From: Boswellia sacra | Taxonomy: Eukaryota; Streptophyta; Magnoliopsida; Sapindales; Burseraceae | Assembly (NCBI GenBank): GCA_013180625.2 | Contig: SNVD02011145.1 | Coordinates: 186,001 to 250,000 of the forward strand | Reading direction: 5' to 3' | Length of the DNA: 64,000 nucleotides | Part shown: positions 4,801 through 49,683 of the stretch, piece after piece | Numbering within the stretch: the first letter of the stretch is position 1 | Layout of the letters: the number at the start of each line of letters is the position of its first letter | The notes under the pieces: model-generated | The model's input: the letters and a program-made list of their open reading frames with translations, nothing else | Database searches by the model: none | Told to the model about the DNA's origin: nothing | Made by a program: the position numbers and the translations under genes

Positions 4801-5340
4801 ACATAGAGAAGCCATGGCGAAGGCCTTGATAGAGTACGAATATCAATGGCTACCACTACTACTGATATGTTGACCGCCTTGACTGGGGGAGCACCCCAGG
4901 GAGTACATGAGAAGGGAGTAATCATCTTCACTAATGAGGATTTCTCATTTGAAGGGAAGGATCATAACAAGCCATTGTTCATCACCACAGAAATTGGTGG
5001 GAAGACGTCTCCTTGTATCATGGTGGATGATGGGTCCGCCATTAATATTATGCCTATAAAGATACTGCACAAGTATAGAGTCAGTAAAGATGAACTTGAG
5101 CCTTGTGATATGGTGATCAGGGCTTATGACGATTCGAAGAGGAGTGCCATAGGAATCTTTAAAGCCTTAGTAAAGGCTAGGCTAATTGAAGTGATGATAG
5201 AATTCATAGTCCTCGACATTCTAGTTACATTTGTTGCCTTCTTAGGATGAGCATGGTTACATCTGCTGGGAGGAGTTCCTTCCACTTTACATCAGAAAAT
5301 TCGATTCAACATGGATGGAGAGATTGTAACCATTCATGCA
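4801..5340 (+). pseudogene. Tat retropepsin (protease) domain, copy 1
   Basis: Aspartic protease that would cleave the polyprotein. The ORF 4846-5250 holds the active-site segment 'MVDDGSAINIMP' (D-[DST]-G-[AS] type) followed by the flap and 'FIVLDI' strands expected of retropepsins. A stop at 5248-5250 cuts it in the place where copy 2 reads '...LLGRA'. Copy 2 has the same segment at 54793-55029 ('MVDDGSTINIVP'). The N-terminal lead 'MATTTTDMLTALTGG' matches copy 2 at 54617 onward. Confidence 0.75.
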
Positions 5341-5550
5341 GCCTCAACGATTACACCAGTTGCTTTGAGTGTGAAGGTTAGAGAAATACCTTATATAGAT
5401 GGCTTTTAAGTAGCTATGATTGACGAAGTCAACCCTATTATAGCTGAAATAATGAAGAAACAATGGTACTTGTTGGGTACTGTACTTAGAAGGAATGGAT
5501 ATGGTTTTCCATCCTTCCCAAATTTTAAAGTCTAGACTTTTAGAAGAGGG

Positions 5551-6778
5551 TTGGGCTATAAATCCGAAAAGGAAGAAGAAGACATTGAGCCTAAGAAAGA
5601 GGGATTTATCAAATTCGTCAAAGCCCAAGATACGAAGTATGTGGGAGCTACCGAACCATGGGTTTTCAAGAGAATGTTGAAGCCTGGATTTGAGATCTTC
5701 AAAGATATCCTTCAGGTAGAAGTCTCCAAGAGGAATGACTTGGCGGGAGAGATGGAGAAGATGACTATCAAAGAGGAGAAGCCTCAAGAACAAGCACTAC
5801 CAATGGACCCATCTATCGACCTTGCTGCTTTCATCGAAGAAGGAATTAAAAATGTATCTTATAAAGATGTGTTTGTATCCAACCTCTTTGAAGAAAAGGA
5901 CATGATTTATGCCTCGAAGTTTAATGCAATGAAAAATAATTTTGCTTACTTGTTTGATGTCTATCCTAATGGTGTTGTGGATCATAATTTGTATTTCACT
6001 AGCATATTTGAAATTCATGCCATTCAAACTCATGACATTAATCTTGGTACAATCGAAAAACCTAAGAATATATGTATCACACTTGATACAACTCCTGAAG
6101 AAAGAGTGATTTGAAAAATTATTAAAGAAACATGAAGAAGTCTTCGCCTAGTCTTATGACGACATGCTTGAAATTGATAGAAGCATTGCTAAGCATACAA
6201 TTCCAATTTATCCACGTATAAAGCTGGTTAAACAGAAATTAAGAAGGATGAGACCAAAGTGGGCTCAAAACATCAAAGAGGAAGTCTCTGAACAAATTGA
6301 AGAAAAGTTTCTAGAAGTTGTGGAGTATCCGAAATGGTTAGCCAACATCGTGCCAGTACCGAAGAAGGATGGAAGGATCCGAATGTGTGTGGATTACCGA
6401 GACTTGAACAAGGCCTCACCAAAGGATGATTTTCCTTTACCTAATATCGATGTATTGGTAGATAGCGCTGCCACCAATGTGATGTTCTCTTTTGTAGATG
6501 GGTTTTTTGGATACAACCAGATAATTATGGCCAACGAAGATAAGTTAAAGACGGCCTTCATTACATAATGGGGAACCTATTGTTACAAAGTGATGCCATT
6601 GGGATTGAAGAATGCAGGGTCTACTTACCAACGAATGGAAACGACGTTATTTCATGACATGATCTATAAGGAGATGGAAGTTTATGTGGATGACATGATG
6701 GTGAAATTTAAAACTCGAGAGTGTCACTTTGAGGCCTTAGACAGAGTCCTAAAAAGGGTGAAGAAATACAAGTTGTAG
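5551..6778 (+). pseudogene. Tat linker and reverse transcriptase, copy 1
   Basis: RT copies the element RNA into cDNA. The ORF 5551-6114 is the linker between protease and RT. RT proper runs over 6164-6568 and 6590-6778: 'LANIVPVPKKDGRIRMCVDYRDLN' is represented by the fingers segment PKKDGRIRMCVDYRDLN, then FGYNQI, PLGLKNA and the catalytic YVDD at about 6683-6694. An in-frame TAA near 6566 separates the two ORFs, so the polyprotein is broken inside the catalytic domain although the catalytic Asp pair is still readable. Confidence 0.85.
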
Positions 6779-11490: not shown

Positions 11491-13592
11491 TCACTCATCA
11501 CCATCATTATGAATGTCAAAAGAGAAAGCGGTTAGCTGAGCTAAGAGATGCTTAACCTTACGCTGCAAACAAGTAATTTCTTAACAACCTATCTGACCAC
11601 GCAAAAGAATCATATAATTAGAAAAAAACTATTAAGATAGAAACCATGCACACAAAAAGTATAGAAGGATACTTTACTTGATACTGATGAGACATTTGCA
11701 AACATAGTCGTGAGAAGCAGACTACAAACGAAAAACCCGTTCCATGGACGATCGTGGCACCTCCATTGTATTGCATTTCTATTAGTGATAAATGACAGAA
11801 AAATTTGAAAAATGAATAGTCAGGAAACTTACAAAGTAGTGTCCTATGGAACAAAAGGAACGAGCATGTTCGGATCCTTAGTAATCACATGGTTGTGGAT
11901 CAACCCATTGTCATCCTACGTGTAGACGATGTCATTGGGTAAGCCTGAAGGTCACCAATCACATGACCGGCTGGAATAGTCAGGGCAGCTGAAGAAGCTG
12001 GAGGAGAAGGTGGTTGTTGAGCCGCCATAGAAAAAGAAGTCGATGTGCCAGTACTAGAAGAGGAGGCCCTCGATCTCTTCCCACAATGGGTGAAAGAACT
12101 ACCAAAGCGACTAGACACTGCCGGAGGATGAGGAGTGCAATTAGCAGATCGGCCAGGCCTAGTGTATAAGAAGGTGGCTCGAGCCCAATCGATGTAAGGA
12201 ATCATCATCAATGGGAACTCAATAGCACTCAAGTGAATACCGATCATGTAATCCGATACCATTGGCTCTATGGCCAAGTCAGTGGAATCTATCATTAGAA
12301 CTAGTGGTAAAAGAGGAATCAAACGACATGTCAGGCCCTCGAACCAATCCCACACATGATCACCCAGATACCACATCATGCTGCTCACATAGGGAAAGAG
12401 GATGCAGTATAAATTATAGGAGGAAGTGACTCTCATTGCTGCAGGCCGGTTCCCCTCGATTCCTTACCATTCTAAATGAATCTGCAAGGAATAAAGAAAT
12501 ATGGCAAGAGTATGGTATAAATGAAATACTAATTATAATGTTTTTTTACCTTCTCCCAGGTCAGTGTATGAATGTAATCAAAAAAGAAGTCAAGCTCGTG
12601 AGATCTCTCAAACTCTGCACGACGTGCAGCCTACCTCTTTATCCAAGGAAAGGAATAATCCTCACTAGCAAGAAGAGGAGATGGTAGAACTCGTAACTCG
12701 TACGCCCACATCTGTCATAAATAGTACAGAATTAGAAATGGAAGTCATAAGGGCATGATATGAGTGTGTAGAGGAGAAAGAAGTTGCCTCAATAAAAGTA
12801 AAGTAAATCCAAGGACCCTAACAATGCCTCGATAGGCTCGGTCCAAACCAAAATGTAGTTGGTCGAGAGTAGCACAACCCTAGTCAAAATCCCTCACTCG
12901 ATCGAGATCCTGGAGGGCAGAAAGTAAAGTCAAAGCAGTGCTGTTTGACATAATGGCAAAGAGCGTCGTAGGCCACAAATAGACCATAAAGCTACGAGCA
13001 TATTGGTCTATCTCTACAAAAGTTAAAATAGACGTCTGTTTCCAATAGTCATACAAGAGAGCATATCGAATGGCAGTATTGCTCTTAACTTTCACCTCGC
13101 ACCCCAAGAGCTCTTGGATCAACTTTTGCTGATCCCTCGAATCCATGATACAAACATTAATAGGAATTGGCTCGCTGTCGCATGGAAGGTCGGTCAAAGG
13201 AGCAAAATCCAGAGATATGATAGTAATCTCACTAATCGAAAGATGGAATGTGTGGGTCGTATCCATCCACCTCTCGCACAAAGCGGCTAATACCCGACAA
13301 TCGATGTATCGCTGAGCACGCGAGAGACAAGTGATGAACCCATAGAATCCGGTATCAGCAATCCTACTACTAACCGTATCATTCTCTATCTCAATGAACC
13401 AACTATGGGCTCTAGAAAATGCCCCACACATCCTGTTCTCATGATAGTCCTAAAGCGAGAAATTAAAGTCTCTACATGAATACAAGCCCAAACAAATTCG
13501 AAGAAAATGGGAAAGCAAAGAATGAAGAAACTACATACCATGTTGATTATATGGGAAGCCACATCGTAGACAACCGGCACCTCTGGTCTCAT
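11491..13592 (-). pseudogene. Antisense gene A: plant mobile domain (PMD) protein with introns
   Basis: Minus-strand gene whose main exon encodes a plant mobile domain (aminotransferase-like PMD): 'ERWMDTTHTFHLSISEITI', 'LTDLPCDSEPI' and 'YARSFMVYLWPTTLFAIMS'. Exons I can place: 13592-13539 (ATG start), an 89-bp GT-AG intron, 13449 to about 12800, 12711-12550 ('MWAYEL'), 12481 to about 11840, a short exon near 11785-11685, and a last exon ending TGA at 11491-11493. Joins are in frame at the first and third introns. Damage: TGG to TAG just after the ORF end at 12880, a stop in exon 3 and a frameshift near 11910. PMD genes antisense to pol are known in Tat elements; their role is not established. 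Confidence 0.7.
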
Positions 13593-34017: not shown

Positions 34018-36456
34018 ATGGAGCCTACAAATTCGAGGATCACTTTTAAGCTTAAAACACCAGAATCTTACCATTATGAGACGACGATTATGACTATGGT
34101 GGGGTTAGATTGTATTAAAGTGTTCTATAAGCTAATGGACAAGTAGAAGAAGATGTTCATGAAAAAGATAGGTTTTGGAGACCTGATGGACATCCGTGAG
34201 TTGACTTTCCCTAGTGAATTGATTTGCAACGTTTTGTTGCATGAGGTGGAGACATATGACTTAGAGGATGAGGAGTTGGGGTATCTCATGTTCCATAAGC
34301 TTTCACAATGCACTCTGAGTTTATATTGATAGTTGAGTTGTTGATCATGCAGAGAAGACTATTAGATTCTCACCCTATGAGTTCTCCTTGATCACCGAAT
34401 TGAAGTTTGGTCCATTGCCTAACATTGAGGCGAATCCTAAACACCCTTTGTATAAAAATATTTTGGAGAAAAAGCATCTAAAGTTCAATGAGTTCAAGAC
34501 CAGGATTGAGAATTTAGATTTCAAAATGGTGAGGTATTCAGATGCAGTGAAATTGACTACATATTGGGTTCTGGAGTGTCCCCTATTAGGCCGACTGAAA
34601 TCAAGTTCTGATAGTTTGGATTATCTTGAACTAGTGGACGATTTGGAAAAGTTTAAGGAATATCCTTGGGATACAGAGGCACGGAAGGAAACGCCTAATG
34701 TTAGGACTAGTGTGTTAGACCATGCATCAAAATACCAACAAAGAAAAACGACAAAGGATGCACATGACAAGGAGAAATATAACCCTTATGGATGCTTCTA
34801 CGCTTTCTAAGTACTTAAACTTATCTTTCTTTTTTTGTTTTTGGTTTTTAATTAATTACATTACATTAACTATATGACCAACTGTTGATATAGGTCTGGT
34901 TGTAAGTGGCCATTCCTTTTGTTGGGGACTATTACACAACGAAGGGAATGAATTTTGCAAAAAAGATCCCACGCATACTCAGGTGGACAAACAGCAACAA
35001 GCTCATCACCCAAGCTTAGGTTCTAAGGGACATGTTTGATAAAATGTAACCAGTTAGGACCGTGGAATTGAACTGTATTATGTAAATAGGTTTATTACAC
35101 ATGTTTTATATACTAACAGTTTTCTTCTACATGCATGGAGGATTGCCCTTAAGCAAGTATTCAACTAGAGTTGGAGAAGTTGAACAACAATCGTTATATT
35201 ATGAACCGAAAGTGGATACGCAGACCCAGAGGCCCACTTGTTGATAGGGCCAAAGCGAATGAAGTTTCGTTGCCTGTTGCATCAAAGGCACTGAAGAAGT
35301 TGAAAGGGACGTAACCAGTGCATACCGAGGTGTCTCCTCCCTATGTGTCTCAGGTGGCACTGGAGTCTGAGGCGATGCATACAGAGGGCAAGGTTAATAT
35401 AATATAGTGATTAGACATACAATGCATCAATTAACATCATTTGTTTGTTTTTTGAATTAAAAATAGCCTTGTCTTTCGTATAGGTGACTTCTGGTTCTAT
35501 TATCTTAATGAATTTGTTCGAGGCCATTCGAGATGCCATTTAGGCCGAGTTTGCAATCCAACATGTAAAATTGGCTACTACTTTAGCAAATATGAGAAAG
35601 CAATTAGAGAGGTGCATGCTAGACATGCTAAGGCGATCCAAGTGGTGTGAAAGGAGGTCAGGGAGCTGCGTAAGGAGATTCGGGAGCCAATAGAGGAGCA
35701 GCATGCAACAGATGCTGAGGATCTTGAGGAACCTAGAAAATGTAATACTTTTTGGCACTAAGTTCATGAAATTTTGACTATATGAATTGTAACATATTGT
35801 ATTTTGCTACAGAAGGAAGCCATCCATTCAGCACCAACTCCACAAACTTACACCCAGTCTTATCCTAAATACGCATAGTACAGCCCTGTGCACGATGACA
35901 TGGTGCACTCGACTCAGCATAATATGGTTGACATCCACAGTGACTCACATCTGCATCTTTGGAGCACGGTCGGTTATGTACCAGTTGGAGAAGGTTTACA
36001 CCAGTAGAGCACGCATAAAAGTACATCATCTACTTAGTTTGTTCACAGACCCCAACTAGTGGGCGAAGAGGCAGAAGGTTATTCATTCATTTTAGGATAT
36101 CCTAGTTGTTGCCTCACCCTCCTTGTACGATTGGTGGTCTCTCATCAATTTATAGTTTAAGTGGTGTTACGATGCATGGTGTGCTACCGAACATGTTCAA
36201 ATCCAGCTTGGAACTTATTAGTTTGGAAACGGAGTAGCCTTTTTTGGCGACATCACTTGTCTCAGTTCTTAGCTAGGCGATAATATGAGTTTATATTATA
36301 TCTTCATGCTCAACATACCCATGATTTAAATTCCTACATTACTAACAAAATTGATTTGTTCTTTTGTAGCATATCAACTCTTTCATGTATTTTCTATGGT
36401 GCAGAAAAAGGTACAGTCCTGAGGAGATACTATAGCAAACGCCTTGTGTGGATGAC
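34018..36456 (+). pseudogene. DUF1985 / Ulp1-like protease gene of a MULE, 5' part
   Basis: First half of a transposon gene of the DUF1985-Ulp1 (C48 SUMO-protease-like) type. From the ATG at 34018: 'MEPTNSRITFKLKTPESY', then a TAG at 34145. The ORF 34388-34810 has the DUF1985 core ('SLITELKFGPLP' with upstream frame, 'YWVLECPLLG', 'DYLELVDDLEKFKEYPW'). A likely intron follows (donor at 34811, acceptor at 34891), then 'IPRILRWTNSN'. A coiled-coil-like stretch lies at 35550-35750. 36400-36456 begins the protease domain and is interrupted by the Athila-like insertion. Stops mostly replace Gln or Trp codons. Non-functional. Confidence 0.7.
36452..36456. repeat. Target site duplication ATGAC, left
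   Basis: ATGAC immediately before the LTR at 36457, identical to 46410-46414. Removing the element and one copy restores the reading context of the interrupted Ulp1 gene. Confidence 0.95.
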
Positions 36457-37868
36457 TGATGCGTTCGAAACTAGCAAGTATACTAATCACACAAGTAATA
36501 AAGTGATGAGTAAGATATCGTTCCCACGAGGATTGATTCTAATTAAATTTGTTATTCGAAAGCGAAAACAAAATAAATGGGGGTTTTTGTTGATTGATTA
36601 ACTAGATGAAATATTAATGCAAATAAAGAATAACACAATGCAAACTTAATTGAAGTGAGAATTAATCAATGACATAAATTTGGCTAAGGGATCATTCTCT
36701 ACCACAAGATATGGATTTGCGAATAAATCATAAAATTGTCATCCAATTACACCATTGAAATTATCAACTGTAGATAACAACAAGCTCTGTTATCCCAATC
36801 TTTCCTTACTTTGTTGTTAAATAAAACAAGCTCTTTATTTAATCTCTATCCATTAAACAACCTAGAACAAGCTCTCTAAATTTAATTCAATGGATGCATT
36901 ACGATAAGAAAGATAGGTTGATCTAAGCAATAAACACACAAGCTCGGATTATTTAACTTAGGTTATATTCTCCAATTGCAATCTCTGATCACAATTTTGC
37001 TACTAATGATTAGAAATTCAAGACAATTACGGATCAAGATTTCTAGTCTAGCAATAGACGATATCCAAATTATATTCAGTTGGTCATCCAAATACAATTA
37101 GCAAGCAATCATAAGGATTAAATATGGGAGAATACAAGCAACTTCAATTAGAGAATTGGATAACAATATCTTGCACAATCAACTCACAAAAACCATATCA
37201 AGGGCTTTAAAATCACCCTCAACCAATTCAGATTTAGTTACACATATTCAGACACAATACAAATACAATACAATATGGAGACATTCCAGAAAATGAAAGG
37301 GAAAGGGAAAACTTAGCAAATTTGATGAAAATCTCTTAAGATTGTAGTTCTTCCTCTTTCCAAGCCTTCTTTCTCCTTCAAGAACTCCAGGAGATGAGAG
37401 AAATCCAGAGCTGAAGCCTCCCACACGTTCTCCCCTCTTTTTGTTATTCAAATAAAACCATAAAATGTGTTTATATACTCTGATACAGTAACCTACTACA
37501 GTGTTCCGTATTATACATGCTACAGTGATTTGTGGAATTACATTTCTACACTTCTCACACGGTTTTGATTATGACTTTTGGTACACTGAATGGATTTATG
37601 AACCGTAAATTTCTCTAGAAAATAGACTTCGAGAGCTTTCCAACGATATATAACATGTTATCCGGTTCATTGTATATCAATACAATTAAATCTGAGAAGA
37701 TTGTTGACTAGCAGAGGTGAAAATGAAGGGTTTTACTTCACTTTGGTGCAAGTTTCTCCAAAACTCCTACAAACATCAAAACCACACAAAAACATAAAAA
37801 TACCAAGGATTATAGCAAAGAAACATAGATGAATTGATATGAAATGATACATAAATTGACACGTATCA
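36457..37868 (-). mobile_element. 3' LTR of the Athila-like element
   Basis: TGATGCGTTCGAAACTAGC...GACACGTATCA on +, TG...CA ends. Pairs with 44997-46409. Contains an LTR-internal ORF shadow at 37248-37451. Confidence 0.95.
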
Positions 37869-37880
37869 AATTCCCCCACA
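37869..37880 (-). promoter_or_regulatory. Polypurine tract
   Basis: On the minus strand GTGTGGGGGAATT abuts the 3' LTR, preceded by 'ctcgaggactagcaaagtttaa', the usual setting of second-strand priming in this group of elements. Confidence 0.8.
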
Positions 37881-39824
37881 CTTAAACTTTGCTAGTCCTC
37901 GAGCAACTACGATGATATGAAACAAAACTAAATCGAAACAGATTCAAAGAAAAAATTAAAACACACATGTTTTAACTTGCAAATAGGTCTCAAAGATTGT
38001 ACTTAATTATAACTCAAGGAAAACCTCAAAATAATGCACTTGATCAAGAATCTCATTACAAAGATTAGTTTCGCTCTACTTCAATTCCTCAAGTGTGTGT
38101 GTGTACAGCCATTCTCACCTAATCATTTGTTACCCGGATGAGTTTATGCATAAAAATGAATCATATTTAATATTGAAGATGTGTATATAAATAAACTCCA
38201 TAGGCCTGCTTTTCAAGTCACTCTCCACTAATGTAGACATGCACAACACCAAGGATCAAGTAAGACTTTATTAAGCTTGTAACGTTTGGCTTGGGTGAAG
38301 GTATGATAAAGGATAATAATTTGGCTCAAATCACCCACAAACACATAAATCATTCAAGATTACGTAGAGCTCAACCCTATAACACAACTTTATATCAATT
38401 CACCAGGTTACTGCCCCAAACTTATTTAGAACACTTAATCTTTTTTTTTTCTTTTTCTTTTTTTTTAGAAAACAAAAGAAACTACACCCCCACACTTTGT
38501 TGTTTCATTCTTTCTAAGAACACCCAAGGGTATAGATATCTTTTTCTTCTTCTTTTTTTTTTTAACTGCAATTCCCCTCCCCCACACTTAAACAACACAT
38601 TGTCCTCAATGTTTAAGTACGTGGAAGATAAGTACAGATTGTTTTTTTTCTCTCTTTTTTTTTATTTTTACAAACATAATAAAACTCACTTGCATTGCTC
38701 ATGGCACAATCCAACCTCCTCTAACTTCCCAAAACCAGAACATAATTCAAAATGTCATCGTGAATTATCTACATGCTCATAGGTAAGGGACAAACTGTTT
38801 GAAAAAAAAAATTCATTTGAGGTTAGGAAATCTTTTTAGTGAGTTAACAAAAAAAAAATCTTACAAAGGCTCAAAGGGGTAACTAGGGATCAATTTTAAT
38901 AAAGGTTGGCTATTAAGGCTCAAACGGTCTAAAGATGGCCTAAATCATTTCCCTAATGTTGCACAGTCTAGGATTTCGCCTCGAGTGACCATCAAACAAG
39001 TTCTAGAATTCATTGAAATCTGAAGAAACACTTAAATTACATAAACTTTCTCTAAGTAAACAAATAACTCAGTGATAATAGCTCAGTGCTCAATGTTGTG
39101 CAAGGGATCAAAGGCAAAACGAAAACCAATAAATATTTCAAGCACACAGACCATGCATTATTTATCATTTTCCAAGAGTTATTCTCAATTCAATCGTTAT
39201 CTTATCATCGACCCATAAAATGCAAGAAAAGAGGTACGTGGCGTTGTTACACCTGAGTCAAGATTGTATATTTCAACAATCCTTAGGACCAGTAGCCCGC
39301 AGACTTAAGGTTTCCAGCCTATATACCTTTATTATGAAAGAACGAAACAAGAAGCAAGACACTTCAAATAACATGAAATAAACAAACTACAGATTTATTT
39401 AGAGAGAATACGTTTCAAGAGTTAAGGAAACCCCATATTCTGCCATTCTCAGGTTTTTTCACAATTTTTTTTTTCGAATCGAAACTGATAAAGACAAAAA
39501 CGCACAACAACTCTAAATTACACAAAACTAAACTTACTTATAAAATAACAAAGTCCAACAAATCAGCAAACAAAAACAATTCAGTTAGAATGGGTCTAAA
39601 AAGTTTAGAAGTTAGCCTCCTTATTCAGCCATTATGGATTAAAGAAATCCAGAATCAAGAGAACTTGAACTTTTTAAGCCACCACTCTAAAAGGCAAGAT
39701 TAGAAAATATTACCTAGAACGAAAGAAATAACCTGAAAAAGCTCAAAAGAAATAACATGAAAATCCTCAAATAAACACAATAAAAAGAAAGCAAACAAAA
39801 GTGAAGCAAACCAGTAGATAAAGA
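37881..39824 (-). other. 3' untranslated region between LOG and the 3' LTR
   Basis: Nearly 2 kb without a supported gene. Two long T-rich tracts with 'cccccacacttaaac' (about 38430-38680) resemble the polypurine-tract region read on the other strand. The + ORF 38291-38782 is low-complexity. It may still contain decayed env-region sequence, which I cannot recognise. Confidence 0.45.
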
Positions 39825-40475
39825 TTACAGACTTAGTTTTAAATCTAGTTTACGCCTTTTATTGCCTTCCGCAAACCAATCTATTTGAGCTATTGTTGGA
39901 TCAGGCGAATAGACGAATGCTTGTAATTTGTCAATTAACTCCCCTGCAGTTGAAGCTGTAACCAGGATTTGCCTCGCCGACTGTGAGATGAAGTTTTTTT
40001 CTACTGCTTGATCAAGAAAAGACAACAAACCATCAAAAAAATAATTGACATTTAACAAACCAATGGGTTTCCGATGGATGTTTAGCTGTGCCCAAGAGGT
40101 GATTTGAAATATCTCCTCTAATGTACCATAACCACCGGGCAAAGCTATAAATGCATCAGATTCAATGACCATATGTGCAATACGCTCATGCATGCTAGAG
40201 ACCTGTAACTCTTCCCCCATTGTGTTGCCTATGATATCTCGCACAGCTAATGGTTTAGGGATAATGCCGAGAACTTTACTTCCTCCCAAGGATGCAGCTA
40301 TCAACACACACCCCATTAACCCAAGACTACCCCCTCCAAAAATCAAATGAATACCCCTCGCAGCTAATGTCCTACCAAGATCAAGATTTGCTATTGTAAA
40401 CTCTCCATCTTTACCAAATTGTGATCCACAAAATACGCATATATTTTGGAATCGCCGAATTGGTGTTTTCTCCAT
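39825..40475 (-). CDS. LOG: LOG family cytokinin riboside 5'-monophosphate phosphoribohydrolase, captured by a retrotransposon
   Basis: Intact 216-aa ORF, the usual full length of plant LOG enzymes, which release active cytokinin bases from their nucleoside monophosphates in the cytosol. Rossmann-like start 'ICVFCGS' (12-18), 'FGGGSLGLMG' (46-55), 'GIIPKPL' (70-76), 'MHER' (95-98) with the catalytic Arg, and the signature PGGYGTLEE (113-121) with the catalytic Glu. 'KPIGLLNV' follows. The Lys normally after MHER is Ile (MHERI). The C-terminus ends in basic 'KRRKLDLKLSL', atypical. No introns, whereas plant LOG genes have several, so it arose through an mRNA. Start context is gaaATGG. It lies between pol remnant and 3' LTR of the Athila-like element, same strand. 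Confidence 0.9.
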   Translation of the reverse strand: MEKTPIRRFQNICVFCGSQFGKDGEFTIANLDLGRTLAARGIHLIFGGGSLGLMGCVLIAASLGGSKVLGIIPKPLAVRDIIGNTMGEELQVSSMHERIAHMVIESDAFIALPGGYGTLEEIFQITSWAQLNIHRKPIGLLNVNYFFDGLLSFLDQAVEKNFISQSARQILVTASTAGELIDKLQAFVYSPDPTIAQIDWFAEGNKRRKLDLKLSL

Positions 40476-40578
40476 TTCTACAAGTGCTCTAACCTTGTGT
40501 AAGACAATGATGCACGTTACGTAATATGCTTTTCAAGTGTAAGACAGGTTAATATAATGACATTTGAAAATATGGAGA

Positions 40579-40592
40579 ATGGATATATACAC
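40579..40592 (-). promoter_or_regulatory. TATA-like box upstream of LOG
   Basis: Minus strand 'gtgtgtatatatccat', about 110 bp before the LOG ATG and about 100 bp downstream (in the LOG direction) of the G-box array. Candidate core promoter; no expression evidence. Confidence 0.4.
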
Positions 40593-40664
40593 ACGTAAAA
40601 CTCTCAAATTTGACACATGGGGACATAATTTCAGTGGGGGTTACTCGATGCAGATTTATCGTCC

Positions 40665-40934
40665 CAAGATTTGAAAAAATTAGATATGCTTTCGGCGAGG
40701 TTTGACAAAACCTATATACTTGTCTCCCACGTGAAACATGAAAAATGGAGATATACTTTCGGCGGGGTTTGACAAAACCACCACACTTGTCTCCCACGTG
40801 AAGCATGAAAAGTAAATATATACTTTCGGCAGGGTTTGACAAAACCGTCACAATTGTCTCCCACGTGAAGCATGAAAAGTAGAGATATACTTTCGGTGGA
40901 GGTTAACAAAACCTCCACACTTGTCTCCCACGTG
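40665..40934 (-). promoter_or_regulatory. Four 67-bp tandem repeats, each with a CACGTG G-box
   Basis: CACGTG occurs at 40728, 40795, 40862 and 40929, exactly 67 bases apart, each within 'cttgtctcccacgtg'. Each unit also has 'actttcggcggggtttgacaaaacc', containing the inverted repeat GGTTT-gaca-AAACC. Units differ at only a few positions. G-boxes bind plant bZIP and bHLH factors (established); an enhancer role for LOG is inferred from position 250-460 bp upstream of its ATG. Confidence 0.85.
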
Positions 40935-41163
40935 TACTTATGCCCTAGGGTAGTCATATGGTTTGTCAAAAAGAAAACTTGAAATTAAAACAAACAAAAT
41001 CAACAAACAACAACAACACAAAAACAACTTTGATATTCAGATCAAACGAAACAAGAAAGAAATAAAATTCGACAACAACAACACACATTCAAATATACAA
41101 GTAGTTGTGATTGTGGCTCACATTTTCCTCTGGTTTTACGTCCAGTAACGGCTGAAACGCCTT

Positions 41164-41631
41164 CTATGAGTCGGGGATTTGCTTCCCATCCAGTTTTCTT
41201 ATAAACTGGCAAACAGGGTCGTTTTTAGTCAGATTCTCTAGACTATAACACTGCAATTCATCAAGAAATTGTGTCCATAGATTAAGCAATTCACGCTGAA
41301 CAAGTCCACAATAATGTGACTCAAGAGTTAATAAAACATTATCCAGCGACTCATTACTCAGACCATTCTTAATAAATGACAGTTTATATTCTCTATTTCT
41401 GGACACAAAACCTAATGAACGACAAGTCTGGTTACAATTCCATCTAGCACATTTATAACATACTTGTAACCTCTTCGCTCTTTGCCTCTTGGCGTAGTAG
41501 CTTTTTCCTAGACCAGGCATGTATTTTGCGAGATTAATGTCAGGCTCACCTGAAAATCTCACCTTGGCTTCAATAAGCCATCTGATATCCGCAGGCACAT
41601 TTAGGAGCATCAATGCCCAAAGTCTAGTCAT
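41164..41631 (-). CDS. Unrecognised 155-aa Cys-containing ORF inside the Athila-like element
   Basis: Intact ORF on the element's strand, about 700 bp upstream of LOG. I do not recognise the family. It starts 'MTRLWALMLLNVPADIRWLIEAK', shown here only as MTRLWALMLLNVP, then a basic stretch 'YYAKRQRAKRLQVCYKCARW' and a Cys cluster C-x2-C-x4-C-x3-C (VCYKC...NCNQTC), which could bind zinc. The C-terminal half is Leu-rich and probably helical. Composition is ordinary-protein-like and non-repetitive, unlike chance ORFs here. It might be a second captured host fragment or an env-region ORF. Upstream (about 41865-41755) 'RELKSLLKGLKRAYLGEE' may be another exon or a pol remnant. Confidence 0.5.
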   Translation of the reverse strand: MTRLWALMLLNVPADIRWLIEAKVRFSGEPDINLAKYMPGLGKSYYAKRQRAKRLQVCYKCARWNCNQTCRSLGFVSRNREYKLSFIKNGLSNESLDNVLLTLESHYCGLVQRELLNLWTQFLDELQCYSLENLTKNDPVCQFIRKLDGKQIPDS

Positions 41632-42163
41632 CCGTACTTTATAAATTTAAACACAGCATTTTGAGGAAGTGAAGGGAAATATTTACAAAGGTTCGATAGA
41701 AAGATATCAGCATCCATTGAAGAGAAGAAAAGGAGAGATATTACCGATAATGCGATTGAGTTTGTTCTTCTCCCAGATATGCACGTTTCAAACCTTTGAG
41801 CAATGACTTCAGCTCCCGTTTGGATGTTTCCTCAATCTGTTGCACAAATAAATTCGAAGTACGGAATAATCAAATTAAACAAAACAAAGGAAAAGAAAAG
41901 AGCAGAAACGAAACTAAAGACACATAAAAGAGATAACAACACAATAGCAAACAAAGTCAAAAACAAGTAAAAGAAATATAAAAACAAATAAGACAGATGG
42001 CAAAGAGAGATAAAACCTGATCAATTTGATGGCCTACGAAAGGAATCTCCTCGAGACACAAAAATCGACATTATTACCTTATTTTATTTTTCTTTTATTT
42101 TTTTTTTTATTTATTTTGCAAAAACATTGGGTTGCCTCCCAATAAGCACTTGGTTTAACGTCC
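41632..42163 (-). other. Post-pol segment
   Basis: Begins (minus strand) with 'cgacgttgggctgagg' followed by 'cgttaaaccaagtgcttattgggaggcaaccc' (42170-42120, quoted in pieces), a string that normally follows the end of pol in this group of elements. Here it directly follows the truncated pre-RT linker, marking the deletion junction. Rest is A/T-rich without a gene. Confidence 0.5.
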
Positions 42164-43281
42164 TCAGCCCGACGTTGGTTCCATCATGGGAGGGTCCAAT
42201 CTCTGCTGTGCTTCTCTAGTGGGCTTGAATCCTTTTTCCAACAAGAATTGTTGCATGCATATGGCTGGGCCTTGGATGTTAGCAATCGTCCACCCAATAG
42301 CTATTTTATGATCTCTAAGTACTCGGACGAGTTTCTTTTCTTGTAGTGGTGCAAGACCCATTTCTATTGTAATTGGTAAGAGATCATTCTCATCCAGGAA
42401 TCCATGCTTCAAATGATCTGGAAGAGGCTTAAGCTCCAAGGTAGTGGCTTTCATCACAGAAGGGAGAAGTTTCACATTAGATAAAGGAAATTGAATGCAC
42501 GAAATATCATACCTATTTGTGGTTATGGCTATGGTCTCGTCTAAGCTTGCCACAGCTTCCTCCATTTCTTTGGACACTTTTATCAACCTTCTTGATTCCT
42601 TGGAGTTTTTTGTCCCTATGTGCTCACTAAAAGCCACTTCAAATCCATCCTTGTGAGTTAACTCAAAATGTTGTTGTGGCAAAGAATAAATAACATCAAC
42701 TGCAAAAACAGAATGCAAGTCACTAGGGTACCTCATTGCCTCAAAAATATTGAAACGGATCACCTCGCCATCAAATTCCATGGTGAGAGTGCCATCATGA
42801 ACATCAATCTTAGTTCGAGCAGTTTCAAGAATGGTCTCCCCAAAAGAATCGGTGTTGGATTAGGAGATGTCTCATCCTCCATTTCAAGAACATAGAAGTC
42901 TGCTGGGAAAACCAATTGATTCACCTGCACAAGCACATCTTCCACAACTCCCTTGGGATATGCATTAGAACGATCAGCAAGTTGAATGGTAATACCAGTT
43001 TCCGCAAGAGGTCCAAGATTTAAAGAAGCATAAATAGAATATGGCATGACATTAATAGATGCTCCTAAATCTAACATAGCCCTTTCAAACTTGGTTCTAC
43101 CAATGGTGCATGGAATGGTAAACGTACCTGGATCTTTGCATTTCGGAGGAATTTTTCTTTGTAGTACAGCTGAAACATTTTCCCCCACACTTACTTTCTC
43201 ATTTCCCTTCAACTTTCTCTTGTTGGTGCATAACTCCTTGAGAAATTTTGCATAACGAGGCACTTGCTTAATAGCATCCAA
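42164..43281 (-). pseudogene. Protease and pre-RT linker of the Athila-like element, frameshifted and truncated
   Basis: ORF 43281-42760 carries the retropepsin: 'MLDLGASINVMPYSIY' with the active-site Asp-Leu-Gly-Ala, and 'ILLGRPFL'. A one-base deletion near 42823 moves the frame to ORF 42781-42164, which contains the linker ending 'KPTREAQQRLDPPM', the segment just before RT in relatives. The protein then stops at 42164, so RT, RNase H and integrase are missing. Position and order directly follow gag. Confidence 0.85.
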
Positions 43282-43323
43282 AAGTGGTATATTTACCTAA
43301 ATCTTGCGAAAAGTTTCCAAGAT

Positions 43324-44889
43324 TTACTGTTCTTGTTCCTCCTTCTTTGATTTTGCAAATCTGCTAGGAAATGGTGGAGGAGTAACATAAGAAGGAATTT
43401 GAGTTTTAAGATCTACCTTAGAAGATGATGTTTTGTTCATGGTGGAAGTGGTGTCATCCCCTTCATTAGTTTGTGACTTTTTTTGTGGGACTTGTAATTG
43501 CTTTCCACTTCTCAAAGTTATTGCACTAGCATTCTCTCTTGGATTGATCATTGTCTGAGAATGTAATTTTTCTAAGCTTTGACTCTCGAATTTGCTTATG
43601 TTAGTAGCCAATTGTCCCATTTGATTTTTTAGGTTTTGGATACTTGCCCTAGTTTCCTGCTGAAATTGCATTGTGTTAGTAGCAACTGCTTTAACAATGT
43701 CCTGGAGAGCCATACCTGAGTTTTGCGGAGCTAGTTGTGGTGCTGGCTGTGATTGCATTTGAAATGGTTGCTGCACTCTTGGTTGATTGAAACCTGCTGG
43801 CCGATTTGGTATGGCATTTGGGGCGATTGGTTGATGATTACTGTAACTTTGGCTTGGTTGTCCTAGAAATCCACCCATGGCATTGGCTTGTTCCGTATCT
43901 CCTTCTTGCAAAGTTGGACACATGTCGGTAGGATGGTCCGTGGTAGAACACACTCCACATACATAAGATTGCTGCATATGTCCTACAGCCATTTTTTTTA
44001 CAAGAGAGGTAAGTTCAGAAAGTTGTTGTTCAATGTTCGGAGTACTTACCTCATTTACTCTCCTTGGCAGTTGTGACTCAAATTGGCTGCTGAATTGTTG
44101 GGAGCTCGCTGCCATATTGCTAATCAAATGCCTTGCAACTTTCGATGTTTTATTAACTAGTGCTCCACCACTAGCAGCATCAATGATACTCCTTTCCATT
44201 GGTAGGAGACCCTCATAGAAATATTGAATTAGGAGTCCATCACTAATTTGATGGTTTGGACAGCTAACACATAACCTTTTAAATCTCTCCCAATATTCAT
44301 AAAGTGATTCTCCATTGTGTTGTCGAATGCCACTAATATCTTTTCTAATGTTTATAGCTTTCGAAATGGGAAAGTATTTCTCTAAAAAGAGTTTACTTAT
44401 CTCATTCCACGTGGTGATGGTACCCGATGGTAGATAGTATAGCCAATCTTTCGCCGAATCTGCTAATGAGAATGGAAAAGCTCTCAATTTTATTTGCTCC
44501 TCAGACACGCCAGTTGGCTTCATACTTGAGCATACCACATGAAATTCTCTAAGGTATTTGATAGGATCCTCTCCTGCAAAACCATGAAATGTAGGCAAGA
44601 GACGAATTAGTCCAGATTTAAGCTCAAATTCTACCTCAAGGTTGAGATTTATGCACAGCGGTTGTTGATTAATAATTGGAGCTGCTAACTCCTTAAGAGT
44701 CTGATTGTTTTGCATCGTCATTACTTCCGATTCAGATTTGATTGAACTGCAAGAAGATGGAAGGGAAGTATGTCGTGCAAGGTCAAATTCTGGAGGTGGA
44801 GTTAAAATTGACCGATTTAGTCTTAAATTCGAGGATTCAAGAAACTCCTTGATTCGCTTAAGTCGTTGATCCGCTTCTCCCTCGGACAT
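43324..44889 (-). CDS. gag: Gag of the Athila-like element, intact
   Basis: 521-aa capsid/nucleocapsid ORF. The retrotransposon gag domain spans about residues 95-210: 'LLPTFHGFAGEDPIKYLREF', 'FPFSLADSAKDWLYYLP', 'KLFLEKYFP', 'ESLYEYWERFKRLC'. A CCHC zinc knuckle CGVCSTTDHPTDMC lies at about 311-324, followed by a Gln/Pro-rich stretch and a conserved 'ENASAITLRSGKQL' near the C-terminus. The start at 44889 is 84 bp inside the PBS. No stops, so with helper pol the element RNA could still be packaged. Athila assignment rests on PBS and gag style. Confidence 0.85.
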   Translation of the reverse strand: MSEGEADQRLKRIKEFLESSNLRLNRSILTPPPEFDLARHTSLPSSCSSIKSESEVMTMQNNQTLKELAAPIINQQPLCINLNLEVEFELKSGLIRLLPTFHGFAGEDPIKYLREFHVVCSSMKPTGVSEEQIKLRAFPFSLADSAKDWLYYLPSGTITTWNEISKLFLEKYFPISKAINIRKDISGIRQHNGESLYEYWERFKRLCVSCPNHQISDGLLIQYFYEGLLPMERSIIDAASGGALVNKTSKVARHLISNMAASSQQFSSQFESQLPRRVNEVSTPNIEQQLSELTSLVKKMAVGHMQQSYVCGVCSTTDHPTDMCPTLQEGDTEQANAMGGFLGQPSQSYSNHQPIAPNAIPNRPAGFNQPRVQQPFQMQSQPAPQLAPQNSGMALQDIVKAVATNTMQFQQETRASIQNLKNQMGQLATNISKFESQSLEKLHSQTMINPRENASAITLRSGKQLQVPQKKSQTNEGDDTTSTMNKTSSSKVDLKTQIPSYVTPPPFPSRFAKSKKEEQEQ

Positions 44890-44972
44890 AAAAGCCTAAA
44901 CAAAAACAATCAGAAAATAAAAATCAAAAAATCAGTAGTAAAAACAGAATAACAACTTGATTAGAAAATCAA

Positions 44973-44990
44973 TCCCCGGCAACGGCGCCA
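44973..44990 (-). promoter_or_regulatory. Primer binding site, tRNA-Asp type
   Basis: Minus strand TGGCGCCGTTGCCGGGGA, six bases inside the 5' LTR. Complementary to the 3' end of plant tRNA-Asp, as in Athila elements. Confidence 0.9.
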
Positions 44991-44996
44991 AAAACT

Positions 44997-46409
44997 TGAT
45001 GCGTTCGAAACTAGCAAGTATACTAGTCGCACAAGTAATAAAGTGATGAGTAAGATATCGTTCCCACGAGGATTGATTCTAATTAAGTTTGTTATTCGAA
45101 AGCGAAAACAGAATAAATGGGGGTTTTTGTTGATTGATTAACTAGATGAAATATTAATGCAAATAAAGAATAACACAATGCAAACTTAATTGAAGTGAGA
45201 ATTAATCAATGACAGAAATTTGGCTAAAGGATCATTCTCTACCACAAGATATGGATTTATGAATAAATCATAAAATTGTCATCCAATTACACCATTGAAA
45301 TTATCAACCGTAGATAACAACAAGCTCTGTTATCCCAATCTTTCCTTATTTTGTTGTTAAATAAAACAGGCTCTTTATTTAATCTCTATCCATTAAACAA
45401 CCTAGAACAAGCTCTCTAAATTTAATTCAATGGATGCATTACGAAAAGAAAGACAGGTTGATCTAAGCAATAAACACACAAGCTCGGATTATTTAACTTA
45501 GGTTATATTCTCCAATGGCAATCTCTGATCACAATTTTGCTACTAATGATTAGAAATTCAAGACAATTACGGATCAAGATTTCTAGTCTAGCAATAGACG
45601 ATATCCAAATTATATTCAGTTGGCCACCCAAAAACAATCAGCAAGCAATCATAAGCATTTAATACGGGAGAATACAAGCAACTTCAATTAGAGAATTGGA
45701 TAATAATATCTTGCACAATCAACTCACAAAAACCATATCAAGGGCTTTGAAATCACCCTCAACCAATTCAGATTTAGTTACACATATTCAGACACAATAC
45801 AAATACAATACAATATAGAGACATTCCAGAAAACGAAAGGGAAAGGGAAAACTTAGTAAATTTGATGAAAATCTCTTAAGATTGTAGTTCTTCCTCTTTC
45901 CAAGCCTTCTTTCTCCTTTAAGAACTCCAGGAGATGAGAGAAATCCAGAGCTAAAGCCTCCCACACGTTCTCCCCTCTTTTTGTTATTCAAATAAAACCC
46001 TAAAATGTGTTTATATACTCTAATATAGTAACCTGCTACAGCGTTCCGTATTATACATGCTACAGTGATTTGTGGAATTACATTTTTACACTTCTCACAG
46101 TGTTTTGATTATGACTTTCGGTACACTGAATGGATTTATGAACTCTAAATTTCTCTATAAAATAGACTTCGAGAGCTTTCCAACGATATATAACATGTTA
46201 TCCGGTTTATTGTATATCAATACAATTAAATCCGAGAAGATGGTTGACTAGCAGAGGTGAAAATGAAGGGTTTTACTTCACTTTGGTGCAAGTTCCTCCA
46301 AAACTCCTACAAACATTAAAACCACACAAAAACATAAAAATACCAAGGATTATAGCAAAGAAACATAGATGAATTGATATGAAAATGATACATAAATAGA
46401 CACCTATCA
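44997..46409 (-). mobile_element. 5' LTR of the Athila-like element
   Basis: 1413 bp, TGATGCGTTCGAAACTAGC...GACACCTATCA on +. About 97% identical to 36457-37868 by hand alignment, with one single-base indel near the end. It is the 5' LTR because gag reads away from it on the minus strand. Confidence 0.95.
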
Positions 46410-46414
46410 ATGAC
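46410..46414. repeat. Target site duplication ATGAC, right
   Basis: Identical to 36452-36456. Confidence 0.95.
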
Positions 46415-47100
46415 AGCTTTTATAAGTATTTCAATATTAGTTTATATTAGAATCCATACTATGTAGTGTAGTTGACATAACATTAATCATGGTCAAAAGT
46501 ATATGGATAATCTTTGTTGGTTAGCACCCACGAGAGGTGGAAAGACAACCTAGACAACATCGCATGCGAGACGCTTTTATTCTAGTTCATAGATGGGATC
46601 AATATGGGCCAAGGCAAAATGTAGGCCAATGCCAACGTTGTAAGTCATAGTACTATCTGTGTTAATCTTATGCTTTTCACGTAATTGTTTACATCATCAC
46701 TAGCTCAGATCTGATTCCTTCTTATTGGTTTATGCCCCTGTCAATGTACAAGGTCAACCTTAGGTCTAGGGTCATATTGTATTTAAGGACAGGGAGGTCA
46801 TTCTCTATAGCTCTCAAATACCTCCAAACCCATAAGACCAGGGCAAGTTGATAGACTTTTGCATGCCTTGGTCGGTCATGATATCACACCTCATACAAAA
46901 GGCCCAGTTCTTCCCCAATCGCACTGATGTCTCGTACAATACTAGCCCATTTGCCATCTTCCAAGCTAGATAGGCTATCCTTCAGTAGCCTATAGGAAGT
47001 GGAAAATGTGGAGTGATGAAGATCTAGCATTTGGGAGGAATGGATCAGACGTTAGATTTCTAGAGTTATTCGTTGGAAGGGTGGACACAGATGAGGGTTT
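46415..47100 (+). pseudogene. Ulp1-like C48 protease domain, 3' part
   Basis: Continuation of the gene split by the Athila-like element. Fragments in shifting frames read 'VYAPVNVQGQPWV' (near 46730), where Ulp1 proteases have N-x-x-x-H-W with catalytic His, then 'PIGSGKCGVM' (near 46985), the catalytic Cys loop. The His position appears mutated and frameshifts separate the blocks. Together with DUF1985 this is the Kaonashi-type ULP gene carried by some plant MULEs. Confidence 0.6.
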
Positions 47101-47559: not shown

Positions 47560-49683
47560 CTACAACTAATGGTGGGTAAAGGGGTAAAGGATTCTTATAT
47601 GTCTGCCTATTGTGACCTCTACCCTTATACGTTGTCTAACTTTCTCATCGACAGAAGGTATAACCTGTAATCATTGGCGTCCAGCCTATGGTCGTGTAAT
47701 TGATGGGAGAACAACCTGTGCCTTGACCTCGTCTAGTATAACCCAATTCTTGCTCATCCCTACCATAATCACTAGTAAGCCATATGCAATCATCAAATGT
47801 TCATTCGGGTACATAGGACTGCAAGAAGGCATAACCAACTTGAGGTTGGCATAATAGCAGGCGGCAATGGCATGGAACATGGAATCTGATCCAGGGCATA
47901 CACCCTAAGGTAACATGTCTGTGCATTCGGGCCTACAACGTCGACTCTAATACTAGAATAAACCTAAAATAAATGCCTATTGATAGTAGTAACCTGAAGT
48001 CCATTTGATTTATCTTTTTGAGTTTTAAACAAGTCTTCCATCCACTTGGTCAGTGTTATGGTAGAGTTTATACCTACAGGCCTTCTCTCATAGACCCACT
48101 CCCACAATACCTATTGAGAATCAAAATTACAATGTTAGTTCATATCCTTACTACATGGGTTATTGGGTGTAATAGTGTAACATAACACATCTGATAGCAA
48201 AATTCACAGATCAAAGTATGCTTAAGTTTTTTGCTTTTTTCATTTTGTTGTTCATAGACTCAAAAATATTTGTGGTCAAGATGTTTAACCTATGATCGAA
48301 AATGTGATACTATGCCTATTTACGAACATCTACTCACTCGAAATAGTCAATGGCCCTTGCATTGATGCCCTTTACTTGTTCAAAAAATTGGTCGAACTTA
48401 ATTTGCAAGTAAGCTTTGGTTGCATTGATAAAAACAAAGGCTAGGTACTTTTCCTTAAACTTTTCACCTTCAAGTTACCTCCTAGATGATGCATACAAAT
48501 CCCAAACAGAGTATTTGGGAAGATGGTAGATACTGCCTTCTTAATACTTTTGTGGCGATATAAAACGATAACAAGATTTGGAATGTGTCCAATAATACCA
48601 TAAAGCCTCAACATGAACCAACACCATGACTCATCATTCTCTTTATGACCGAATATAATGACAAGTAGGAATATTTGGTTGTTGCCATCCAGAGATTAGC
48701 CATGAACATTATGCCTCATAATTTCCCCTTAAAAAAGTGTCATCAATAGCAACAACTGTTCTAATCGAAATAATAAATTTAGAAATCGATGCCCCCAATG
48801 TGATGAAGAAATATTTGAAGTGATTATCGTTATTAAACTCAAGTACAGTTATTGTACCCAGATTTGTTGACTTAATCATGTAAGCATACGAGGGTGAAAG
48901 ATTAAATAACTCCTTAGCAGTTTTATGAAGCTAGTTTAGAACGGCTCTTTCGCCCTCCATGCCTTTTGATAATTGATTGTAATGTGCAAGTCTTATTGAA
49001 ATCCTCAATTATCTCAATAAGTCAACATATGCTTGAGGCATTAACAAACTCCTCTTTAATGCGAGCCCCAATTAGTTCTACACTTTCTTGCTTGTGTTTT
49101 GGATGTAATCCCATACCTTCACATGTATGCATGTTGTTAAAAACCCTTACTTGGAAGAATTCGGTGTATTTAACCTTTGTTGCTCTTAAATGCCATTTGT
49201 AAGTTTCATCATGACAATCCACTTCAAACTGAGTCTTAGTCGATCTGGTTATTTTGAACTCAAAGTTATGTTGCAATGCCAAGTTCGCCACCTTATATCG
49301 GAGTTTTGTCTTGTCTGAAAATCTATGACCAACTACTTCACCACTGTCAATTTCATGCATGCTACCAAGAACGGGTGTTGTGGAATGTGGTATTGGAGGC
49401 ATTAACCTAAACACATCCTTAACGCTTTTAAGTATCAAATCGTTCACTCTATGGTTATGTTGAATTTGTACATCTTGTTCCAAATGCAAATCTACTTCAT
49501 CTTTGTCATCACTATTACTTTCACCTTCCCAACCATCATGTGTGCCTTATTTGCACTATCATCATTATCATTATCTTCCTAGTAACTATCTTTTACCATT
49601 GACACCTCCTCAAATGCTTCACTTTTGATATTGTTAAGGTGGTGATCATCATCATTTGTAACTTCGATAACGTGATAGACAAC
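47560..49683 (-). pseudogene. MULE (MURA-like) transposase pseudogene, 5' end lost
   Basis: Order on the minus strand: acidic Asp-rich N-terminal remnant (49683-49500); DNA-binding MuDR domain in ORF 49489-49022 ('GHRFSDKTKLRYKVANLAL', 'VFNNMHTCEGMG'); catalytic region in broken frames with 'DDTFLRGNY' near 48745 (first Asp of DDE), 'KENDESWCWFMLRLYG' and 'NTLFGICMHHL' near 48490; 'TNIFESMNNKMKKAKNL' near 48260; and a SWIM zinc-finger remnant 'FHAIAACYYANL' at 47880. Several stops and frameshifts. Tat copy 2 is inserted in its 5' part at 49683/49684, so the start codon lies beyond the window. Confidence 0.75.

Follow-up and report, generated by a model that had tools for sequence, protein, structure and literature searches.

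A pol-deleted LTR retrotransposon of Boswellia sacra carrying a LOG-like gene with an altered pocket

Does a LOG gene enclosed in a plant retrotransposon still encode a cytokinin-activating enzyme, or has the element put it to a use of its own? The question arises from a 64,000-nucleotide stretch of Boswellia sacra DNA (assembly GCA_013180625.2, contig SNVD02011145.1, positions 186,001 to 250,000 of the forward strand; hereafter the window), in which a 9,953-bp long terminal repeat (LTR) element on the minus strand (36457-46409) contains an open reading frame (ORF) of the LOG family. An initial interpretation made from the letters of this stretch, referred to here as the sequence-only reading, took the ORF to be a hormone-activating enzyme that each new insertion would spread as a cytokinin source. 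The interpretation favoured here, which we consider probable, is that of a non-autonomous Athila-like element with a sense-oriented cassette between pol and the 3′ LTR, in which a gene for a carlavirus-type nucleic acid-binding protein (NABP) is followed by an altered LOG.

Anatomy of the element

The element is one complete insertion unit. Identical copies of the target-site duplication ATGAC lie at 36452-36456 and 46410-46414, and they enclose a 5′ LTR (44997-46409) and a 3′ LTR (36457-37868), both on the minus strand and both with TG...CA ends. A primer-binding-site-like stretch recognized by eye, TTGGCGCCGTTGCCGGGGA (44973-44991, minus strand), adjoins the 5′ LTR and is presumably of the tRNA-Asp type, and a purine-rich tract, TTAAGTGTGGGGGAATT (37869-37885, minus strand), also recognized by eye, adjoins the 3′ LTR. 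The locus thus has the matched repeats, target-site duplication, primer-binding site and purine-rich tract that characterize LTR retrotransposons. The LOG ORF lies between the pol remnant and the purine-rich tract and belongs to the element because the duplications, the LTRs and the tract enclose it, which rules out that it is a mere neighbour. The sequence-only reading had described gag, LOG and LTRs as a single unit of about 9.95 kb between identical 5-bp ATGAC flanks, and these features bear it out. Its hand count of about 3% LTR divergence also agrees with the computed value: the LTRs differ at 47 of 1412 aligned sites (33 transitions and 14 transversions; 96.6% identity), a Kimura two-parameter (K2P) distance of 0.034. 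This distance corresponds to an insertion age of 1.3 million years at a substitution rate of 1.3e-8 and of 2.4 million years at a rate of 7e-9.

The coding region begins with a 521-residue gag ORF (43324-44889, minus strand; PF03732, 71.7 bits), followed by an aspartic protease ORF (42760-43281, minus strand) whose PF13650 score of 25.5 bits barely exceeds the cut-off of 24.3. The protease is frame-broken, as had been noticed earlier: the next pol ORF overlaps it and carries on in another frame. This pol remnant of 205 residues (42164-42781, minus strand) has no Pfam domain, and from its appearance we take its end to be roughly the start of the reverse transcriptase. Pol ends at 42164, and no Pfam domain of a reverse transcriptase, RNase H or integrase was found in the scanned ORFs. 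The element is therefore non-autonomous and pol-deleted. With most of pol gone, the window copy could move only in trans, which speaks against each insertion spreading a cytokinin source.

Between the pol remnant and the NABP gene, the minus-strand interval 41830-42175 includes a stretch that we take to be the conserved post-pol motif of Athila/Tat elements; this motif and the type of the primer-binding site presumably place the element in an Athila-like lineage. The interval also contains a possible splice acceptor near 41837. An Rfam scan of 36400-46500 returned no family at gathering score, and an antisense ORF of 163 residues (38291-38782) has no Pfam match.

A LOG-like protein with a changed pocket and tail

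The LOG-like ORF (39825-40475, minus strand) encodes 216 residues ending in KRRKLDLKLSL. Its score of 128.1 bits against PF03641 (cut-off 27) rules out a chance open frame or a misread domain, and it contains the PGGxGTxxE motif of the family. The ORF is intronless, since its alignment with Arabidopsis LOG3 is gapless over 194 residues; the domain score and this alignment confirm the earlier description of a full-length, intronless LOG ORF with a PGGxGTxEE signature. Outside the tail, the protein is confidently modelled as a LOG fold, with a predicted local distance difference test (pLDDT) score of 88.5 and LOG3 (2a33) as the best structural match. It is 45-49% identical to five aligned cellular rows. 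All 173 matching plasmid records fall below 60% identity, a LOG family protein from a Synechococcus phage is the top match in a viral fold library, and a scan of viral contigs with the LOG confirmed no relative.

According to the accessible part of a study of CgLOG, Arg99 and Glu122 are its catalytic residues, and Met96, His97, Lys100, Glu125 and Trp129 form a proposed prenyl pocket (PMC4979012). The window LOG retains the catalytic pair as Arg98 and Glu121, and in the pocket it keeps the Met, the His and Trp128. The pocket Lys is replaced by Ile99 and the pocket Glu by Gln124, so that two of the five residues proposed for a cytokinin-type pocket are changed. Counts for relatives refer throughout to the best 120 matches listed for the window LOG, and counts for cellular proteins to 120 listed cellular matches. 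Of the relatives, 111 have the catalytic Arg and 115 the catalytic Glu; the pocket Trp is present in 117 and the pocket His in 53. The pocket Lys survives in 13, with Ile (42), Leu (35) or Met (28) elsewhere, and the pocket Glu in 12, with His (51) or Gln (50) as the usual replacements. The catalytic Arg and Glu and the pocket Lys, Glu, Trp and His are retained in 120/120 cellular proteins. The window LOG thus shares its fold, PGGxGTxEE signature and catalytic pair with the cellular LOG1/3/4/8-type cytokinin riboside 5′-monophosphate phosphoribohydrolases, but differs from them in its Ile and Gln, in a basic LxLxL C-terminus and in its location within an element.

The window C-terminus, KRRKLDLKLSL, fits the LxLxL pattern that we take to define an EAR motif. 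LxLxL occurs within the last 14 residues of 95 of the relatives, following basic residues in 90 of them, and within the last 20 residues of none of the 120 cellular proteins.

A maximum-likelihood tree of 74 rows (the window, 49 of the 120 LOG matches, 22 of the 120 cellular proteins and two bacterial sequences), built after removal of the tail and of three pocket columns, unites the window LOG with the 49 relatives in a clade (97/95) that is separate from the cellular one (99/95). On this tree, two changes are needed at the pocket Lys, one at the pocket Glu, eight at the His and three in the tail. The old Lys/Glu pair is retained in Xanthoceras-type members, in P0146 and its kin, and in P0177, which combines it with an LxLxL tail; in P0184, the Lys is paired with Gln. 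P0146, P0150, P0180, P0188, P0211 and their kin lie at the base of the clade and have the cellular Lys/Glu pair together with a basic tail lacking LxLxL. These basal relatives may show the order of the changes or a secondary loss.

Named hosts in the list include Xanthoceras, Melia, Reevesia, Diplodiscus, Populus and Rehmannia, which are rosids plus an asterid. With several eudicot hosts in its clade, the protein is not a capture private to the window element. Reevesia alone contributes 15 proteins on contigs of 10 different sizes, and a cluster of LOG matches can comprise as many as 205 sequences. Database entries present proteins of this clade as cytokinin enzymes of the host, LOGL10 in Populus being an example, and can thereby mislead gene-family counts.

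The sequence-only reading stressed that the LOG has no stop or frameshift. The frame is indeed open, but this is a weak sign of selection after insertion. Since insertion, the frame should have taken on about 11 substitutions, and in simulations at the LTR divergence it stayed open in 42% of 20,000 runs (67% without indels). The open frame alone therefore says little about post-insertion selection, and its intactness was rejected as proof of selection in the window copy. On the window branch, measured against the sisters P0124 and P0126, changes affect 4 of 73 conserved columns versus 35 of 109 variable ones (Fisher p 7e-6), and the protein departs from its relatives' consensus at 2 of 72 conserved columns. 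Selection before insertion is thus better shown than selection after it, and the constraint speaks for the family rather than for the window copy since its insertion. The window branch, at 0.41, is longer than those of its sisters (0.09 and 0.10).

A second element-borne gene and its probable linkage to LOG

The sequence-only reading did not mention an ORF that lies upstream of LOG in sense orientation (41164-41631, minus strand). It is the open 155-residue part of a carlavirus-type NABP (PF05515, PF01623), scoring 34.2 bits for Viral_NABP (cut-off 23) and 21.8 bits for Carla_C4 (cut-off 20.9). The N-terminal homologous part starts at 41717 in a frame that differs from that of the remainder, the frame break lying near 41630. 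The Cys motif C-x2-C-x4-C-x3-C is retained. There are 217 homologues, and the names among the best 120 listed include Rhamnella, Populus, Xanthoceras and Orobanche. Within these 120, the same spacing is found in 102, a looser spacing in 106 and neither in 14, and the commonest length is 182 residues (51 proteins). Among 26 aligned members, 23 match Viral_NABP and 20 match Carla_C4 (E 0.001). The structural model is poor (pLDDT 51.7), solved structures include no relative up to E 1, and viral contig scans with the NABP and with the NABP alignment confirmed none. With carlavirus-type NABPs (PF01623/PF05515), the protein shares domain scores above the cut-offs and a basic stretch followed by four cysteines; it differs from them in being encoded behind a pol remnant in an LTR element and in its C-x2-C-x4-C-x3-C spacing.

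Equal contig sizes and one Orobanche gene model suggest that NABP travels with LOG. Among source contigs of 2-100 kb, the NABP and LOG match lists (31 and 25) have three sizes in common (2128, 2425 and 8723), versus 0.11 on average, and never more than 1, when the lists were compared at 120 small offsets. An equal size is indirect evidence that two matches share a contig. Sizes under 2 kb are uninformative because three are shared and three are expected. In Orobanche gracilis, a single gene model (P0119) contains NABP and part of LOG. A Rhamnella protein (P0036) starts with what we take to be the end of an Athila-type integrase and runs into NABP; Pfam finds no integrase domain in it. One Xanthoceras chromosome length is also common to both lists and shows no adjacency, since the locus tags ACOSQ2_032187 and ACOSQ2_032800 are far apart.

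Between the two genes, on the 5′ side of LOG, a 67-bp tandem repeat of 3.9 copies (40675-40934, minus strand) contains four exact occurrences of CACGTGGGAGACAA, a G-box core. Allowing up to two mismatches, the window holds 6 matches to CACGTGGGAGACAA versus 0.21 expected. The four exact occurrences are not independent because they are copies of one repeat. That this region serves as an internal promoter is a guess.

Candidate functions and rival explanations

LTR elements that carry a cellular-type gene are familiar, maize Bs1 being one. A 2011 abstract by Steinbauerova and colleagues is said to describe two Athila-like elements with LOGL4-like ORFs. The earlier claim that capture of a hormone-activating enzyme had no known case has to be given up, as the accessible part of a 2022 survey reports YgdH, a LOG-family domain, in Gypsy consensuses of Citrus sinensis and C. 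clementina, and in one of Populus trichocarpa once a five-consensus filter is switched off (PMC9289625). The same text mentions LONELY GUY and calls its YgdH result in line with Steinbauerova 2011 (PMC9289625). LOG-carrying LTR elements are therefore a known kind, and the window element is a new member of it, with an NABP partner, a pocket change and a tail that the accessible texts do not mention. The Citrus and Populus elements are alike in being LTR retrotransposons with a LOG-type extra ORF, but the accessible part of their account refers to none of these three features (PMC9289625). They were also not found reported for an element-borne LOG in a search of the open-access literature. The papers there that touch on both carlaviruses and retrotransposons are a review of plant viral proteases and a review of small RNAs, and for YgdH in Citrus retrotransposons the 2022 survey stands alone. 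Open-access papers on the EAR motif or TOPLESS and LTR elements, judged by title, included none on an element-borne protein, and the word decarboxylase does not occur in the accessible parts of PMC7264820, PMC6317226 and PMC11963269. The orchid Gypsy elements described in the same survey likewise carry a cellular-type gene, in their case for an AlkB m6A demethylase, but the enzyme is a different one and the window element has two extra genes (PMC9289625).

If the favoured interpretation is right, the cassette would be expressed through an mRNA that is either spliced or started from an internal promoter. Its LOG would fold as the usual enzyme and still handle a nucleoside 5′-monophosphate, but recognition around the adenine N6 would be altered, which may set it apart from ordinary cytokinin activators. 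The basic, EAR-like LxLxL tail may direct entry into the nucleus and contact with a TOPLESS-type co-repressor. Carlavirus-type viral NABPs are reported to counter silencing, and by analogy the NABP of the element may bind nucleic acid and do the same. The window copy has open gag and LOG frames but a broken pol and a broken NABP start, which leaves NABP an internal start at best.

The rival closest to the earlier reading is that the LOG of the element works as a cytokinin activator, and that its expression would raise active cytokinin near insertions and perhaps give an advantage to dividing or meristem cells through which copies are transmitted. The retained fold, PGGxGTxEE signature, catalytic Arg/Glu, pocket Met/His and Trp128 are consistent with it, as is the pre-insertion selection against change at conserved columns. 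We nonetheless regard it as doubtful, given that, of the best 120 listed, 107 have another residue for the pocket Lys and 108 for the pocket Glu, the window LOG showing both replacements, and that alanine mutants of crucial AMP-binding and catalytic residues of CgLOG, S19A excepted, almost lose their activity on AMP, according to the accessible text (PMC4979012). On the sequence evidence, the label of hormone-activating enzyme thus appears to fit the catalytic pair but not the pocket. The changed pocket and the LxLxL tail together leave the cytokinin source unproven and perhaps wrong; a shift in substrate use and a part in nuclear co-repression are both live options.

It is improbable that the LOG is a passenger without function, its frame open only by chance within a dead element. 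The 42% chance of an open frame since insertion, the broken pol and NABP, and a branch of 0.41 that exceeds the 0.09 and 0.10 of its sisters would all suit such a passenger. The lineage is constrained, however, with changes in 4/73 conserved versus 35/109 variable columns and only 2/72 conserved columns off the consensus, both figures describing the family rather than the post-insertion copy. Names in the databases present some members of the clade as host genes, and the cellular sample is restricted to LOG1/3/4/8 types, which would leave room for an LxLxL-tailed subfamily of host LOGs, one copy of which later landed in the element. The repeat-like dispersal in Reevesia and in the large clusters, the linkage of LOG with NABP, and the YgdH reported in Gypsy consensuses by the accessible part of the 2022 survey (PMC9289625) make this very unlikely.

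Several points weigh against the favoured NABP-LOG cassette with its altered LOG. Expression of the cassette and activity of the LOG are predictions from sequence. Membership in Athila is presumed from the post-pol motif and the type of the primer-binding site because the reverse transcriptase and integrase are missing. Only 49 of the best 120 LOG matches were placed in the tree, its cellular side is limited to the types just named, and most homologues lie on short contigs, so that the element-borne status of each is presumed. Thirteen of the 120 keep the pocket Lys and 12 of these also the Glu, 11 of those 12 being tailless. Covariation of Lys and Glu was rejected as independent evidence because it involves few steps on the tree (two for Lys and one for Glu). 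The tail is absent in 25 of the 120, some of which are short or cut gene models; it was sought in the last 14 residues of LOG matches and the last 20 of cellular proteins; and in the window it is short and modelled with low confidence (pLDDT about 57).

A bolder proposal, which we think unlikely as it stands, is an element lineage, spread over several eudicot families, that carries a pair of host-manipulation genes behind pol, in the position of the env-like genes of its relatives. Its virus-type NABP and a nuclear, TOPLESS-recruiting LOG with a changed N6 pocket (accepting, for example, another N6-substituted AMP) would link the sensing of hormones or nucleotides with silencing or with cell division, to the element's benefit. 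A cytokinin-pathway fold that keeps its catalytic residues and changes its pocket and tail points to use by the element itself, and its pairing with an NABP like those of plant RNA viruses makes it testable whether plant retrotransposons act on host hormones or repression as viruses do.

Elsewhere in the window, plus-strand ORFs at 4846-6568 look like pieces of another LTR element; one of them (6164-6568, plus strand) matches the reverse transcriptase family PF00078 below the cut-off (25.8 versus 29.6 bits). An ORF at 34388-34810 (plus strand) matches DUF1985 below threshold (26.7 versus 35.1 bits), and one at 49022-49489 (minus strand) has a MuDR-type transposase domain (PF03108, 33.3 bits). 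The ORF at 12880-13431 (minus strand) contains a plant mobile domain (PF10536, 51 bits), which is known to accompany other Gypsy and MULE elements of plants (PMC9289625).

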